From a virus, in the IMG/VR virus record IMGVR_UViG_3300006329_000017, positions 1-59,021 of that record: DNA of 59,021 nucleotides. One strand, given 5' to 3'. Below are positions 2,639-48,162 of this stretch, in pieces. The notes beneath the pieces are model-generated. The model was not told the DNA's origin. It made no database searches and saw only the letters and a list, made by a program, of their open reading frames with translations. The stretch's first letter is position 1; every line of letters starts with the position of its first letter. Both the position numbers and the translations under genes were made by a program.

Positions 2639-4967
2639 TACATGCCTCACATTCTGATTCATCACCAGATAATATTTCATTCACGAGATTATTTAGATAC
2701 ATACCCTCGTTGTCCTCATGTGGTTGTTCATCCTTCCATCCGATTGGATGTGCAGGTTCATCAACATCCTTCTTAGCATCATATGTATTCTGATAGTAAG
2801 AAGTTTTCCATCCTAATTTATAGGTAGTCAAGAAGTCTCTTGCCATCACATCCATAGGAACTTCATTGTCAGGATAGTTCTCTGGATTGTATGACCAGTT
2901 ACCACTTATTGCTTGATCAAAGAACTTCTGCATCACTGCTACGACATTGATGTAACCCTCGTTAGATGGCATATCCCATAGTAATGTGTAGTTATTCTTT
3001 AGTGATTGATAAGACGGAACAATCTGCTTAAGCGGTCCTTTCTTTGATTTTTTAATGGACAAGTAGTCTCTAGGTGGTTCGATTCCATTGGTTGCATTTG
3101 ACACAACGGAACTGCTCTCCGAAGGCATCTGTGCGGACAATGTGCTGTGCCTGAGACCGTGGGTGGTGATAGATGTCCTAAGACTATCCCAATCATGCTT
3201 GAGGTTATGAGGTACTATAGAATCTACATCTCTCTTATATGTATCGATAGGTAGTATTCCATCAGCATATTTTGTGTCATCAAATCCTGCACATCTTCCT
3301 CTCTCCTGAGCAAGTTGGTTAGATGCTTTCAGTAGATAGTATTGGAATGATTCTGTTAGGTCATGAACCAACTGCCATGCAGCAGGGTCATCATACTTGA
3401 CACCATTCTTAGCAAGATAATGTGCTAAACCAATGTATCCTATACCCAATGACCTGCGTGCTATTGTGCTGCGTTCTGCTGCCTTTACAGGATAGTTTTG
3501 ATAGTCTATTAGTTCTTCTAGTCCACGAACAGCAAGGTCACAGAGTTCATCCATCTGATCTGTGTTTGTTATCTTACCTACGTTGATAGCAGATAGAATA
3601 CAGAGTGCAATCTCTCCTCCTTCATCATCTATATGATTGATAGGGTCAGTAGGTAGAGTAATCTCTTGACATAGGTTACTCATGTTAACTTTATCCTTAA
3701 AGGATGAGTGCTCATTACAATGATCGATATTCATAATGTATATACGACCTGTCTCTGCCCTCTCCTTGAGGATGTCAAGCATTAATTCTTTTGCTTTAAC
3801 TGTAATTCTGGGGATGGATTCGTCCCTTTCGTAACTGCAATATAGGTCATCAAACCTATCGGTCCCAAAACTCTCATACAAGTTAGGACAATTATGGGGA
3901 GAAAAAAGCGAGATTTCCTGATTCCTGATAAACCTTTCATAGAATAACTTACTGATCTGAATACTATAATCTAACTTTCTGACTCTGTTGTCTTCTGTTC
4001 CTTTGTTGTTCTTGAGGACGATGATGTCTTGGATTTCCTGATGCCAGATAGGAAAGTGGACAGTAGCTGATCCTCCTCGGACACCGTTTTGCGTACAGCA
4101 TCTGACAGTTGACTCAAATTTTTTAAGGAAGGGGACCACACCTGTGTGCTGAACTTCTCCACCCCTGATTTTAGAATTGATTCCCCTGATTCTACCTGCG
4201 TTAATACCGATACCAGCCCTCTGTGCGACATATTTGCCAATAGCCATATCACTGCTAAAGATACTATCGAGGGTGTCATCAATATCAACCAGAACACAAG
4301 ATGCAAATTGACGAATGGGTGTTCTGACTCCAGCCATGACGGGGGTTGGGATGTTGATTCTGTGCTTGCTGATTGCGTTGTAGTACCGTTTGACATAATC
4401 GATTCTTGATTCGATGGGATAATTTTGGAAGAGAGTAGCAGCAATTAACATGTACATCTGCTGTGGTGTCTCAAACACCTCACCAGTACTGCGATCTTGT
4501 ACTAGATATTTATCTACGACCTGTCGTAGACCTGCATATGTGAACAGATAATCTCTGTCCCAATCAATAAAGTCATGAAGTTCTGACCATTCCTCTTCCG
4601 AATACTGTTTGATAAGGTCAGGATCATACACACCCTTGTCAATACACTCCTTAATATGCTCTATAAGAGGTGGAGGATTGTCTGGATGTCCTTTATATAC
4701 AGATTTTCTATAAGAAAATAGAAGTAAACGAGCAGCAACGTACTGATAGTTAGGTTGCTCTAATGTAATCAAATCATTTGCAGATTTGATAAGGATCTCT
4801 TGTATGTCAGATGTCATTATATTCTCATAGAATTGCAAATTAGAGTTCATCTCTATTGCTGATTCAGATACACCTGCGAGTCCATCACATGCGAACTCCA
4901 CCATGCGGTGAAGTTTGTCGAGGTTAAGGGGTTCGACTACACCGTTACGCTTTACTACGCTGATCAT
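2631..4967 (-). CDS. nrdA: Ribonucleotide reductase class Ia, alpha subunit
   Basis: Catalytic subunit that makes deoxyribonucleotides. The 778-aa protein shows an N-terminal ATP-cone (about residues 1-90), active-site cysteines C224 and C456, the radical-site cysteine C433 in the NLCQE motif with E435, and the C-terminal shuttle pair C773/C776 (CEAC). All residues needed for class Ia chemistry are present. The start overlaps the primase stop by 4 bases (ATGA), and the stop overlaps the heme oxygenase start. It forms a replication-nucleotide cassette with primase, ho1 and nrdB. Confident call. Confidence 0.97.
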   Translation of the reverse strand: MISVVKRNGVVEPLNLDKLHRMVEFACDGLAGVSESAIEMNSNLQFYENIMTSDIQEILIKSANDLITLEQPNYQYVAARLLLFSYRKSVYKGHPDNPPPLIEHIKECIDKGVYDPDLIKQYSEEEWSELHDFIDWDRDYLFTYAGLRQVVDKYLVQDRSTGEVFETPQQMYMLIAATLFQNYPIESRIDYVKRYYNAISKHRINIPTPVMAGVRTPIRQFASCVLVDIDDTLDSIFSSDMAIGKYVAQRAGIGINAGRIRGINSKIRGGEVQHTGVVPFLKKFESTVRCCTQNGVRGGSATVHFPIWHQEIQDIIVLKNNKGTEDNRVRKLDYSIQISKLFYERFIRNQEISLFSPHNCPNLYESFGTDRFDDLYCSYERDESIPRITVKAKELMLDILKERAETGRIYIMNIDHCNEHSSFKDKVNMSNLCQEITLPTDPINHIDDEGGEIALCILSAINVGKITNTDQMDELCDLAVRGLEELIDYQNYPVKAAERSTIARRSLGIGYIGLAHYLAKNGVKYDDPAAWQLVHDLTESFQYYLLKASNQLAQERGRCAGFDDTKYADGILPIDTYKRDVDSIVPHNLKHDWDSLRTSITTHGLRHSTLSAQMPSESSSVVSNATNGIEPPRDYLSIKKSKKGPLKQIVPSYQSLKNNYTLLWDMPSNEGYINVVAVMQKFFDQAISGNWSYNPENYPDNEVPMDVMARDFLTTYKLGWKTSYYQNTYDAKKDVDEPAHPIGWKDEQPHEDNEGMYLNNLVNEILSGDESECEACNV

Positions 4968-5950
4968 ACTCGTTTCCAGTCTGTGAATTTTAATTTTGCT
5001 TCCAATCCATTATATGTGTTGGATAATATTATAGCAGAAGGGTCAAGTCCTGCCAACACCATATCATTGATGTCTTTCTGTTCGACATTCTTTGGCCAGA
5101 TCACTATATTATCCTGCTTGCTAATGGATTTTTCCATTCGCTCAATGATCTGTTTGTTTCTTGGTTCGTTGTCATATACATAGACAAACTCATAATCCCA
5201 AGCACTAAGGTCAACATCGGCACCGCACATAGCGATAGCATTGTCCACAAAGAGGGAGTCCAAGGGTCCTTCTGTAACATAAACTTTTTCATTTTGGTTG
5301 ATAGTATCAAGTCCAAAGACCTTTTGATGATCATCGAACATTATTGTAATGTATCGTAACGTTGTATGCTTTGCCAAAGATCTACCCTGAATGCCAAACC
5401 ATGTACCATCTGCACGAACGAGTGGGATAATAATTCTGGGTTGATCATTGTGGAGACTATCAAACGTTTTCTTCTGTGTGTTGACCCAAGTCTTAAACTT
5501 CTCAGCATAGAATAGTCTTGAGAGTTGACTCTCTGGAACCTTCCTATCGAGAAGATATTTCTTTGCAGGGTGTTCTTTATTTAGATCAGAAATACATTTG
5601 AGATCGTGTGGTTTTTTAAACTTTGGTGTACTGTCAGGGATAGTAAATTTCTCTACCGTTGTACCCTTACCAGTAGAGTTCATACGATACTTTTCTAACT
5701 GATATTCACTATACAAATCAGGAGCAAAGTCTTTCAGAAAGTTCGCAGTAGTCTTCCCAACACCACAGTTGTGGCATTTGTATACCATACGTCCTTTGAC
5801 CAGAAAAAAATACCCCCGAGCCTTGTTCTTATTCTTCTTGGAATCTCCACAGAAGGGGCAACGGAAGTTGTATAGTGAGTTCTTAACTCGTTTAAATTTT
5901 TCTAATCGAATGGATAACCTATTAATATAGAGGTCATCAACTGTACTCAT
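4964..5950 (-). CDS. 61: DNA primase (T4 gp61-like)
   Basis: Synthesises RNA primers for lagging-strand replication, working with the gp41 helicase. The 328-aa protein has an N-terminal zinc ribbon (CPFCGDS and CHNCG, about residues 31-63) followed by a Toprim-like core with an acidic segment (VYVTEGPLDSLF, then YVYDNEPRN) typical of phage primases. Length fits the cyanophage gp61 family. Overlaps nrdA by 4 bases at its 3' end and the coiled-coil gene by 14 bases at its 5' end. Confidence 0.92.
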   Translation of the reverse strand: MSTVDDLYINRLSIRLEKFKRVKNSLYNFRCPFCGDSKKNKNKARGYFFLVKGRMVYKCHNCGVGKTTANFLKDFAPDLYSEYQLEKYRMNSTGKGTTVEKFTIPDSTPKFKKPHDLKCISDLNKEHPAKKYLLDRKVPESQLSRLFYAEKFKTWVNTQKKTFDSLHNDQPRIIIPLVRADGTWFGIQGRSLAKHTTLRYITIMFDDHQKVFGLDTINQNEKVYVTEGPLDSLFVDNAIAMCGADVDLSAWDYEFVYVYDNEPRNKQIIERMEKSISKQDNIVIWPKNVEQKDINDMVLAGLDPSAIILSNTYNGLEAKLKFTDWKRV

Positions 5951-6341
5951 TAATTGTGCTAGTGGGTATTGATATCATAGTACTTTCTGCTCCACTTGTC
6001 AAGAGTGGACGGATTATTCTCTGTCCGACTGGACTAACGAGGAAAGATAGAAGAGAAAGAGCACCAAAGATACTCCACATTTTCTTTTCCATCGTCCTAA
6101 GACGGTCATCGACTTTACGGATGTCTCTTTCACAACCACGTTTGATTGAGTCTGTTTCTCTGTTGAGGTCTGCATGTAACCTATCTACCTTCTCGAATAA
6201 TACCTGATCTATCTTATCTTGCTTATCTAACTTCTCATTATGAACTGCCAGTAGTTGACCCATCTTCACGGAGTTATCCTGTAATGATGATACTACTTTT
6301 TCTAATCTTTCTAGTATAGCTGTGTTTATATTCTGGTCCAT
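5937..6341 (-). CDS. Coiled-coil protein with one membrane segment
   Basis: The 134-aa protein has a long charged heptad-like helix (about residues 8-90) followed by a hydrophobic segment (IFGALSLLSFLVSPVG, about 91-107) and a short polar tail. This looks like a membrane-anchored coiled coil. Similar small proteins occur beside primase in cyanophages; a spanin- or holin-type role is possible but nothing here proves it. The stop overlaps primase. The start lies just after the stop of the basic capsid-arm protein. Confidence 0.7.
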   Translation of the reverse strand: MDQNINTAILERLEKVVSSLQDNSVKMGQLLAVHNEKLDKQDKIDQVLFEKVDRLHADLNRETDSIKRGCERDIRKVDDRLRTMEKKMWSIFGALSLLSFLVSPVGQRIIRPLLTSGAESTMISIPTSTINEYS

Positions 6342-6342
6342 C

Positions 6343-6756
6343 CTACTGGTTCTTTAACGCTTTCATCCTTAGGTCGTAGTAAAATTTGATCACCTGATTG
6401 GGATACAAACGTTTCACATATATCTTTTTATGATTCTCAGGTCTGTAGATCTTCCTGAGTTGTATCTTAATGTCTGCTTCGGACTTACCATAGAGTACAT
6501 ACTCTTGTGCACCGTCATAACATACTTTAAAAGGCAGGTACCTGTCATTCTCCTTCTCAGATTTAGGAGTGACGTGTCCTACCACAAGTCCTTCATTACA
6601 CTTACTCTTATACTTACGCTTCTTCCTCAGTCTAGGTTTCTTTTCGCTGTTCGAACCTAGCATTGGATCAAAACCTGCCACAGGACCACTAGCATTGGCA
6701 GATCCAGAGAATCCACCAGTACCTGCACTCATTGTTGGGGCATCTTCGTTAATCAC
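6343..6756 (-). CDS. Basic protein carrying the gp23 N-terminal arm motif
   Basis: A 137-aa protein starting with GTG at 6756, which overlaps the upstream stop as GTGA. Residues about 3-33 match the mature N-terminal arm of this phage's major capsid protein gp23 (residues about 51-81), sharing APTMSAGT, GFSGS and GPVAGFDP. By eye this is 25 of 31 identical, although codons differ. The rest is a different, lysine/arginine-rich domain (RLRKKRKYKSK, then a small beta/alpha region). Small basic proteins of this kind are widespread in cyanophages with unknown function. The shared arm suggests capsid association; see findings. Confidence 0.75.
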   Translation of the reverse strand: MINEDAPTMSAGTGGFSGSANASGPVAGFDPMLGSNSEKKPRLRKKRKYKSKCNEGLVVGHVTPKSEKENDRYLPFKVCYDGAQEYVLYGKSEADIKIQLRKIYRPENHKKIYVKRLYPNQVIKFYYDLRMKALKNQ

Positions 6757-7152: not shown

Positions 7153-7977
7153 TTAGCTACCGAAGGTTAGAGTAGCAGCTCCGTTGGTGTACTTCTGTTC
7201 AGCACCTTTACTTGTGTTAAGAACACAACGATACTTGTAACCGTTAAGTGTAGTACCACCGAGACTACTGTATGCAAGTGTTGCAGTAGTGAAGTCAGCG
7301 TATGTGATACCAGTGTCAAGGTTAGCAGTGATGTCCACCCAACGTGTAGTAGCTGTAGCTGTCTGTCTTTGCCACTTGTACTGCTTTGTACCAGACTGAT
7401 CGACTGTGAAGGCAGCAACGAATGTTCCTGCACCAGAAGATGAGGTGGAGTTAGCAGGTTGTGTACCAACTGTGATAGTTTCTAGTACATCTGCTGCGAT
7501 TGTATCGTCATCAAGATCACCAGAAGTTCCAACTGCAACTTTAAGAGGTACGATGCACTCAGCTTTATGCTTGGTGTCACCATTGTGTGTTTGGTATGTA
7601 CGATACTGCCACCATCCTGGACCTGAGATACCACGAGTCTTGTTAGATGCGATGCTATCTTCAGTTGTATCTACAAATACCAATTCGTAGGAGTTAGAGT
7701 CTCCTCCAAGTATAACGTACTCAGCCACTGCCTTTGGCGGTGTCCTTTTGATTACACTAGCAGCAGCAACAGTTGCTGTACTACCTGCATATACTTTATG
7801 CAATTCGATAGATGTTGTACTTGTTACTTGCTTAACGATATAAGCAACGCTACTAATCTCTAGCACGTCGCCTACTACTACGCTATCTCCCGCATTCTTA
7901 GACACAGTAGCATCACCATTGGTGACTCCAATTGTGTTAGAGAATGCAGCTGCGTCAATTTTTCCTACGACAGACAT
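7153..7977 (-). CDS. Virion structural protein, Ig-like/beta-sandwich
   Basis: The 274-aa protein is almost entirely beta-type, rich in T, S, V and G. It has an N-terminal module with a VVVGDVLEI turn and a C-terminal Ig-like module with a WQRQTATATTRWVDI strand and a conserved Y-x-C near the end (GYKYRCVLN). Such proteins are found as minor head or neck decorations in cyanophages. A perfect late promoter TATAAATA lies 37 bases upstream and an AAGAGGA ribosome site precedes the ATG, consistent with a virion protein. The exact location on the particle is unknown. Confidence 0.75.
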   Translation of the reverse strand: MSVVGKIDAAAFSNTIGVTNGDATVSKNAGDSVVVGDVLEISSVAYIVKQVTSTTSIELHKVYAGSTATVAAASVIKRTPPKAVAEYVILGGDSNSYELVFVDTTEDSIASNKTRGISGPGWWQYRTYQTHNGDTKHKAECIVPLKVAVGTSGDLDDDTIAADVLETITVGTQPANSTSSSGAGTFVAAFTVDQSGTKQYKWQRQTATATTRWVDITANLDTGITYADFTTATLAYSSLGGTTLNGYKYRCVLNTSKGAEQKYTNGAATLTFGS

Positions 7978-46815: not shown

Positions 46816-48162
46816 TTACATTAAGTTGTCAACAAGAACACGTCTGTAGTAGCGGTTCTTATTAGGATCAAGATCTCCACCGCCTTGGTCTGTGCCTTCC
46901 GCAAATGGGTTAGCAACCATACCGTAACGAGTCTTAAAGCCAATTTTAGGTTGGAATGTATCCTGACCTACGGCTCTGACCATTTGTAGAGGTACATATG
47001 GACAATAGAACAGACCTGCGTCGTATGCTGAACTACCTTTGTATCCTGCAACGTAGAAGTGTCTGTCACTTACGTTTGCTGAATAAGGGTCAACGTACAC
47101 TTTGATGCGTCCGTTTAATGTTCCTGCAAGTGTGGAACTATTGTCATCTGGAAGTAAGTTTGAGTTTCCAGCTAAAGCAGGTGTGTAATCAAGTACACCA
47201 GCCATTGATAGAGCAGAAGCTACGTCTGCAGAACATATTAGAATGTTCCCTTTTCCACGACGAGTTTCATGCCCGATTGCGTTCATGTCTCTTTCGATCT
47301 GGAATAGAAGACCTTTAAACTTCTCAACTGACCATCTACCGTTGGAGTCAACGTCTAGGTCAAATATTCCTGCAGTTGCTGTGTTGTTCTGAGCACCAGG
47401 TCTTGCAACCTTGTATACAGATCTTACAACTTCACGGTTGATTTCAGCAAGAACCTCTGTTGAGAGGATGTTTGCCAATTCTGACTCAGCGTCTAAGCCG
47501 TGAACTGCCTTAAGGTCTTGTGCTAGTTCTAAACTGTACTCAGCTTTGAGTGCTCTGGACTTAGCAGTCACAGTAACTTTCTCAATACTGAAGTTCATTT
47601 CAGCGAACTGGTTACCACTAGCATCACCTAATGCTTCAGCTTCTGCTGTAGGCATTCCGTCTGATGTGTTGTAAGTTCCAGATGCGTTTAGAAGTCCTGG
47701 GTTAGATCCAGACTGTGCTGTTCTACCTAGGTCACTAGCAGCGTTCTCTGCTGAGAACTCTGTGTCTGCTTCGTTAAAGAATGCTTCGGATCCAGCTGTA
47801 CGGTTAGTACCATAGCGTGATCTCATCGCAAAGATAAGACCTGTTGGACCTGTCATTGGTTGTACCCCTGCAATGTCATAAGCAATAAGCTTAGGCATTG
47901 ATCTCCTGATTAGGGAGATTAAAACTGGGTCGAAACCTGCTACAGGACCTGTAGCTGTAGAACTACCACTGAAACCTGCAGTACCAGCAGACATTGTAGG
48001 AGCAGCTTCGTTAAGAACGCCAGCTTCTTCCTTTAAAAATCTTTCTTGGTTTTCTAGCAGGACTGAGGTAACTGCCTTTCTATAACCATCTTTGATATTG
48101 TCTATCTCAGAGTGCTCTAGAATGGGTTTCCACTTTTCCTGCAATGATTCTGAATTAAACAT
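46816..48162 (-). CDS. 23: Major capsid protein gp23
   Basis: 448-aa HK97-fold capsid protein. The first 52 residues are a helical propeptide. The predicted gp21 cut L50-N51-E52|A53 matches the T4 rule, leaving a mature arm APTMSAGT...GPVAGFDP. The body has LIRRSMPKLIAYDIAGVQPM, conserved with T4 gp23. A TATAAGTA late promoter and an AAGAGAA ribosome site precede the ATG. Followed by a strong terminator. Confidence 0.97.
   Translation of the reverse strand: MFNSESLQEKWKPILEHSEIDNIKDGYRKAVTSVLLENQERFLKEEAGVLNEAAPTMSAGTAGFSGSSTATGPVAGFDPVLISLIRRSMPKLIAYDIAGVQPMTGPTGLIFAMRSRYGTNRTAGSEAFFNEADTEFSAENAASDLGRTAQSGSNPGLLNASGTYNTSDGMPTAEAEALGDASGNQFAEMNFSIEKVTVTAKSRALKAEYSLELAQDLKAVHGLDAESELANILSTEVLAEINREVVRSVYKVARPGAQNNTATAGIFDLDVDSNGRWSVEKFKGLLFQIERDMNAIGHETRRGKGNILICSADVASALSMAGVLDYTPALAGNSNLLPDDNSSTLAGTLNGRIKVYVDPYSANVSDRHFYVAGYKGSSAYDAGLFYCPYVPLQMVRAVGQDTFQPKIGFKTRYGMVANPFAEGTDQGGGDLDPNKNRYYRRVLVDNLM

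Follow-up and report, generated by a model that had tools for sequence, protein, structure and literature searches.

A small basic protein encoded near gene 61 of T4-type phages bears an apparent copy of the gp23 N-fist

In the T4 capsid, residues 66-91 of gp23, directly behind the site at which gp21 cuts the protein, form the N-fist (PMC7136217). The N-fist touches four subunits in two capsomers and locks neighbouring shell subunits after expansion; in the prohead it lies inside and is disordered, and expansion moves it to the outer surface, where it becomes ordered (PMC9958956). Fists have been described for gp23, not for gp24 (PMC9958956), and portal-facing gp23 subunits have disordered fists (PMC7136217). 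The gp21 protease reads a short L/I-X-E motif upstream of its cut, and the internal proteins IPI to IPIII, which reach the prohead through a capsid-targeting sequence (CTS) and are processed by gp21, are basic proteins with affinity for DNA at low salt (PMC9026906, which also sets out the targeting logic of the CTS). These internal proteins form a highly diverse set in the T-even phages (PMC3012670).

The window analysed here is a viral DNA stretch of 59,021 nucleotides (IMG/VR record IMGVR_UViG_3300006329_000017, positions 1 to 59,021). It encodes gp23 and a small protein, hereafter the carrier, whose N-terminus matches the fist region of gp23. The features are listed below, with a slash marking a predicted or putative gp21 cut.

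4964-5950, minus strand: gp61 DNA primase, which marks the slot in T4-type phages too (counterparts in P-TIM40, S-SM1 and Syn9 are annotated gp61 DNA primase).
5937-6341, minus strand: DUF7201 coiled-coil protein, downstream neighbour of the carrier (domain match).
6343-6756, minus strand: carrier gene, 137 amino acids, GTG start, phrog_696 (Syn9 gp190/T4-GC 426 family; E = 8.5e-49).
6349-6540, minus strand: C-terminal small alpha/beta domain, residues about 73-136 (AlphaFold pLDDT about 85-94).
6601-6645, minus strand: basic linker (EKKPRLRKKRKYKSK region; from the sequence, low confidence in the AlphaFold model).
6658-6744, minus strand: apparent copy of the gp23 N-fist (DAPTMSAGTGGFSGSANASGPVAGF) plus DPML (phmmer match; limits from PMC7136217 via alignment).
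6745-6753, minus strand: I-N-E, a triplet of the gp21 type (L/I)xE that immediately precedes the fist copy, putative cut (from the sequence; motif from PMC9026906).
6753-7127, minus strand: DUF7207 (phrog_407, E = 8.9e-49), constant upstream neighbour, in the same position in the cyanophage loci checked.
7153-7977, minus strand: head protein (phrog_613, PHROG match), upstream gene of the cluster; S-SZBM1_136, in its place, was detected in virions (PMC9146016).
8010-8020, minus strand: a pair of overlapping late-promoter-like ATAAATA boxes, some 35-45 bases upstream of 7977 (weak; motif from PMC2984593).
46816-48162, minus strand: gp23 major capsid protein, owner of the matching segment (phrog_138, E = 1.4e-170; PF07068, E = 6e-145).
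47932-48006, minus strand: N-fist of gp23 (A53-F77), immediately behind the predicted gp21 cut LNE/A (aligned to T4 gp23 residues 66-91).

The carrier segment NEDAPTMSAGTGGFSGSANASGPVAGFDPML and gp23 residues 51-81 (NEAAPTMSAGTAGFSGSSTATGPVAGFDPVL, DNA 47920-48012) are identical at 25 of 31 positions. When the carrier was searched against the six frames of the window with phmmer, gp23 was matched at E = 1.9e-12 and the next match had E = 3, which excludes a chance match. The aligned stretch takes in the first 33 residues of the carrier and, on the gp23 side, the region around and after the gp21 cut. Both INE before the carrier fist and LNE before the gp23 fist fit the gp21 motif (PMC9026906). 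The limits of the fist in window gp23 were taken from a HMMER alignment with T4 gp23, in which T4 residues 66-91 correspond to A53 to F77; the block common to both window proteins starts at the same predicted cut and extends four residues past the fist end. The shared block, called an arm in an earlier note on this DNA, thus coincides with the T4 N-fist by alignment, and judged by sequence the segment copied on the carrier is the gp23 N-fist.

At the DNA level the two segments agree at 67 of 93 positions, and 13 of the 25 identical residues share a codon, compared to 10.6 expected from codon usage. About half of the identical residues therefore have differing codons, near the codon-usage expectation, which indicates that the likeness is kept at the protein level; with synonymous codons close to random, a recent DNA copy or gene conversion in the window genome is excluded. 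The earlier note had reported the match of 25 in 31, its place directly after LNE in gp23 and INE in the carrier, and a basic remainder unrelated to gp23, all of which were borne out. It had also proposed conservation of the protein rather than the DNA; this stands, but its statement that the codons differ widely was too strong.

The window carrier starts MINEDAPT and lacks an N-terminal CTS, INE/D being its putative gp21 site. Net charge is +8 over the 25 residues behind its fist, and +5 to +10 over the same stretch in cyanophage carriers. A basic linker is followed by the alpha/beta domain, which AlphaFold modelled confidently (residues about 73-136), with low confidence for the first 70 residues. 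A Pfam search of the carrier gave no match, including none to the Gp23 domain PF07068, while the PHROG 696 profile covers residues 2-136. A PDB sequence search with the window carrier returned nothing relevant, and the fold search with the alpha/beta domain gave no Foldseek match with E < 0.001 against the PDB and a best VIA Z of 4.8, so that fold clues to ribosomal LX, YkzG or AcrIC9 were uninformative. BFVD matches with E < 0.001 were cyanophage proteins wherever named.

Both phrog_696 and RefSeq apply the name "major head protein" to this family. A true major capsid protein is ruled out, as there is no Pfam match, the carrier has 137 residues and shares only the fist, and the model contains no capsid body; it shows a small alpha/beta domain instead, and the label is wrong. 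RefSeq also gives the name to the large Syn9 gp220 (L169 39020-42544) and S-SM1 SSM1_226 (L168 38480-40588), which have neither a fist nor visible likeness to gp23. The label is therefore no evidence, and it may be spreading through annotation transfer.

The GTG start of the carrier gene overlaps the stop codon of the upstream DUF7207 gene. Gene order around it is constant in cyanophages: head protein, DUF7207, carrier, DUF7201, gp61, nrdA. Matches to the late-promoter-like motif number 20 in the window versus 16 expected by chance. In S-CREM2, the usual place of DUF7201 between carrier and gp61 is occupied by gp161 (L344 7355-7789), which is annotated UvrC, looks GIY-YIG-like by eye and may represent an inserted homing endonuclease. 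Near the cluster, small proteins of cyanophages begin with MKTFKQF, MKTFRQF or MKTFKQL (L262 about 129 and 540; L263 about 231), starts that resemble T4 capsid-targeting sequences; these proteins may be unrecognised internal head proteins.

The phrog_696 family was matched in 310 phage records (in 282 the match spans most of the query) and in hundreds of metagenomic contigs. A fist-profile scan of 34 records found exactly two places per genome, gp23 and the carrier, in 33. That no other protein was returned rules out the fist as a general-purpose tag on many proteins, and a match to an S-CAM4 "short tail fiber" was unsupported by the fist profile. In many metagenomic relatives, S-CAM9 and Sf-FS3, the same slot holds minimal carriers of 58-77 residues in which nothing but a short pre-sequence and a basic tail flanks the fist. 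This reduction suggests that fist and basic tail are the family core and the alpha/beta domain an addition. Two close relatives of the window carrier (L010 6095-6688, L019 10001-10591) have ~60 additional residues (KEEVLDERLGGKGYSKKATKGGGDWEDSDRG...) within the basic linker, an insert that may be a mobile coding cassette.

Some lineages have lost the fist copy. In S-WAM1 and S-SZBM1 the second fist place is a mere 12-residue remnant, and the gp23 fist is kept with a 2-residue insertion. S-PM2 p147 (L171 6421-7134) and its S-CAM4 counterpart (L263 1821-2534) are phrog_4187-type proteins that occupy the slot without a fist, and the gp23 fist is divergent in both genomes. These proteins start SNLNE/MMAGNG or SNLNE/MMAGDG, with a gp21-type site present, and the C-terminal half of long phrog_696 members weakly matches phrog_4187 (E = 0.034). 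That S-WAM1, S-SZBM1 and the S-PM2 group have lost the fist copy shows that some lineages can do without it. The earlier note had held that homologs in phages with unrelated gp23 arms would count against its reading; S-WAM1 and S-SZBM1, in which the carrier fist is gone and the gp23 fist persists, go part of the way there.

The same arrangement was found outside the cyanophages. Each of 21 complete T4-like genomes of the enterobacterial type has the T4 fist at exactly two places. For the loci read, the second place maps to the gp61 region, with gp61 immediately adjacent in most, and a gp61 match falls in the same stretch in all but L549. The T4-type carrier, MKTYKEFIKE/DMVAGDSGGNPENISTGTTSGAVVNKGPEQIPKKKK (also given as MKTYKEFIKE/DMVAGDSGGNPENISTGTTSGAVVNKGPEQIPKKKKEESKEKEE), has 54 amino acids comprising a CTS-like start, an IxE site, an N-fist copy and a Lys-rich tail. 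Its start MKTYKEFIKE resembles the CTS of IPIII. IKE/D fits the gp21 motif (PMC9026906), and the T4-group carriers read have a hydrophobic-x-E triplet ahead of the fist or touching it. In a PDB sequence search its best match was T4 gp23 residues 59-94 (E = 0.0085), which span the cut and the fist. This carrier is apparently gp61.1, listed in a vibriophage paper as a conserved hypothetical protein common to T4 and KVP40 and encoded directly before the primase (PMC3468402). PHROG scans place T4-group carriers in families 1823 and 2086, separate from the cyanophage families 696 and 3286; orthology is argued from slot and architecture, the fists being only 27% alike between the lineages, near the shuffled level. 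Many T4-group carriers (loci L534-L553, phrog_2086) have an N-terminal domain of ~110 residues (YAYKFIRLMQKPFTEWKAYE...) instead of the short CTS-like start, and it ends in a gp21-type site (LFE, LYE or MNE) right before the fist. Some annotations read "major capsid domain-containing protein", so the likeness to gp23 had evidently been noticed earlier.

A CTS-like start and a basic tail would also suit an internal DNA-associated or ejected protein of the IPI-IPIII kind, packed with the genome, for which the fist merely holds the carrier to the shell during packaging. The first 25 residues of the T4-type carrier even match phrog_5341, "internal virion protein", albeit weakly (E = 0.076). However, no copy of gp23 is described on these proteins in the sources consulted, and the diversity of the T-even internal proteins (PMC3012670) sits poorly with a carrier fist that matches gp23 in both lineages. 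We regard this alternative as rather unlikely.

The earlier note had suggested that the arm serves as a capsid-interaction or processing signal, and one could narrow its role to that of a recognition sequence for gp21 or the scaffold, with no docking in the shell. Its position directly after LNE, INE or, in the T4 group, hydrophobic-x-E would fit such a role. But the gp21 motif sits upstream of the cut (PMC9026906), and many cyanophage carriers lack the triplet, begin at the fist and retain the whole of it. The arm alone is therefore unlikely to be a processing signal, and a pure recognition sequence is quite improbable.

Fists of the two proteins were compared within and between lineages. Within one genome, gp23 fist and carrier fist are 63% identical among cyanophages and 52% identical among T4-group phages, whereas all cross-lineage comparisons give 21-27%, with shuffled controls at 23-26%. 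By this measure the fists have diverged to the shuffled level between lineages and still match gp23 within each, as expected from either co-divergence or capture on two separate occasions. In cyanophages, the two fists of one genome resemble each other more than mismatched pairs do (permutation P = 1e-4), and an alignment-based comparison likewise favours them over pairings with the three closest relatives (P = 0.0017); a partial Mantel test gave a modest correlation that depends on the distance measure (r = 0.21, P = 0.004). Ungapped distances showed little or no co-variation beyond phylogeny in cyanophages, and none was found in the T4 group. By eye, a short TTGYT/TTGFT-type fist occurs on both proteins in S-MbCM6, P-SSM4, Syn9, S-H35 and MS29, and GFTGAAAP on both S-CREM2 proteins; S-RIM2, ACG-2014a and ACG-2014g are counter-cases. 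The co-variation of arms that the earlier note had proposed to test is thus clear between lineages, weak and method-dependent within cyanophages and absent within the T4 group.

Within the carrier family, conservation of the fist (64%) exceeds that of the remainder (44%), whereas the gp23 fist (66%) is less conserved than the gp23 body (82%). These values bear on whether the fist copy could be a functionless relic of an old duplication of a gp23 fragment, or of repeated gene conversion. An N-terminal fragment alone is shared and some lineages lost it, as a relic might be. Its conservation above the rest of the family, the match to gp23 within both lineages despite shuffled-level divergence between them, and the near-random synonymous codons, which leave no room for recent conversion in the window genome, make this very improbable.

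Published proteomes were consulted for carriers in virions. S-CREM2 gp160 (OR473000 128342-129235), the slot protein with a fist (MMAAGATGFTGAAAPEGPVAGYDPLM), is represented by 7 unique peptides in CsCl-purified virions (PMC10665884). In contrast, S-SZBM1_134, whose fist is lost, is not among the 30 virion proteins detected, and its neighbour S-SZBM1_136 is (PMC9146016). This contrast is suggestive; it comprises two cases, and proteins in CsCl fractions can be contaminants. S-PM2_163 and S-PM2_165 are structural by mass spectrometry (PMC2984593), with a numbering that cannot be mapped safely onto the current record. Virion association, which the earlier note had expected of carriers, was therefore seen in S-CREM2 and not in S-SZBM1.

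Retention in virions would be unnecessary if the fist copy regulated assembly by competing with gp23 fists, or with their holder in the prohead, and so timed cleavage or expansion. The ordering of gp23 fists only upon expansion (PMC9958956), the minimal carriers with hardly more than a fist and a basic tail, and the undetected S-SZBM1 member are all compatible with a regulator. Detection of S-CREM2 gp160 in virions argues against it, as do the additional domains on many carriers, which suggest a further role, and we consider a regulator unlikely.

The observed anatomy of the carrier is a fist copy directly after a cut-like site, a constant slot, a one-to-one pairing with gp23 and a basic tail. 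From it we infer, with slightly better than even confidence, a head-accessory protein that is targeted to the prohead, processed by gp21 and docked by its fist in the gp23 lattice. The carrier would enter the prohead, in T4 via its N-terminal CTS-like sequence and in the minimal cyanophage forms perhaps via the short helical pre-sequence. Cleavage by gp21 at (I/L)xE would then yield a mature N-terminus that copies the mature N-terminus of gp23 (MINE/DAPT in the window), unless translation simply starts at the fist. Upon expansion the fist may dock in lattice sites as gp23's own fist does, most plausibly in those without a gp23 donor, next to the portal or at the 5-fold vertices; such sites are the best candidates because portal-facing gp23 fists are disordered and fists are described for gp23, not gp24. 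The basic segment behind the fist would contact packaged DNA or another acidic partner.

This reading agrees with the broader idea of the earlier note that a small basic protein connected with the head reuses a capsid module, as supported by the N-fist identity, the pairing across the T4 superfamily, the CTS-like start and gp21-type site of the T4-type form, and the virion detection in S-CREM2 (PMC10665884). More tentatively, and as a possibility rather than a probability, carriers including T4 gp61.1 might form an unrecognised class of head proteins with a lineage-matched N-fist copy, processed by gp21, which fill donor-free N-fist sites and link the shell to packaged DNA and perhaps to the portal or vertex.

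No description of a gp23 N-fist copy on another protein was found in the openly accessible literature searched. T4 is among the most studied viruses, and gp61.1 is nevertheless missing from the T4 head reviews consulted, including the head proteins named in a recent one. The little-studied carrier is present in T4-type phages, including those of marine cyanobacteria and of gut bacteria, and is probably an overlooked part of T4-type head assembly that is directly testable in laboratory phage T4. That a second protein bears a copy of a capsid protein's mature N-terminus, matching gp23 in each lineage, suggests a docking site whose location merits study. Furthermore, the unknown or misnamed families PHROG 696, 3286, 1823 and 2086 merge into one testable hypothesis, a propagated "major head protein" label is corrected, and the fist may offer a shell-anchoring tag for phage engineering.

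Among the closest known systems, the gp23 N-fist itself is alike in sequence (within a lineage) and in position directly after a prohead-protease cut; in gp23 it leads into the N-arm and capsid body, and in the carrier into a basic segment. T4 gp61.1 shares with the window carrier the slot beside gene 61, a copy of its own gp23 N-fist, a basic tail and (I/L)xE before the fist. However, it has 54 residues and a CTS-like start, whereas the window form has a longer basic linker and an alpha/beta domain and no CTS, and outside the fist the two have no recognisable sequence relation. The phrog_696 proteins called "major head protein" (Syn9 gp190, S-SM1 SSM1_197, T4-GC 426) are the window carrier's own family, under a misleading name, as only the fist is held in common with the major head protein. 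IPI to IPIII are likewise basic and have a short targeting propeptide ending in a gp21 site, as does the T4-type carrier only; they differ in that no N-fist is described on them, and the window carrier differs from them in lacking a CTS. Encapsulin cargo-loading peptides and decoration proteins such as Soc offer an analogy, in which a short element attaches an accessory protein to an HK97-type shell; by that analogy, the element of the carrier would differ in that it reproduces the mature N-terminus of the shell protein itself.
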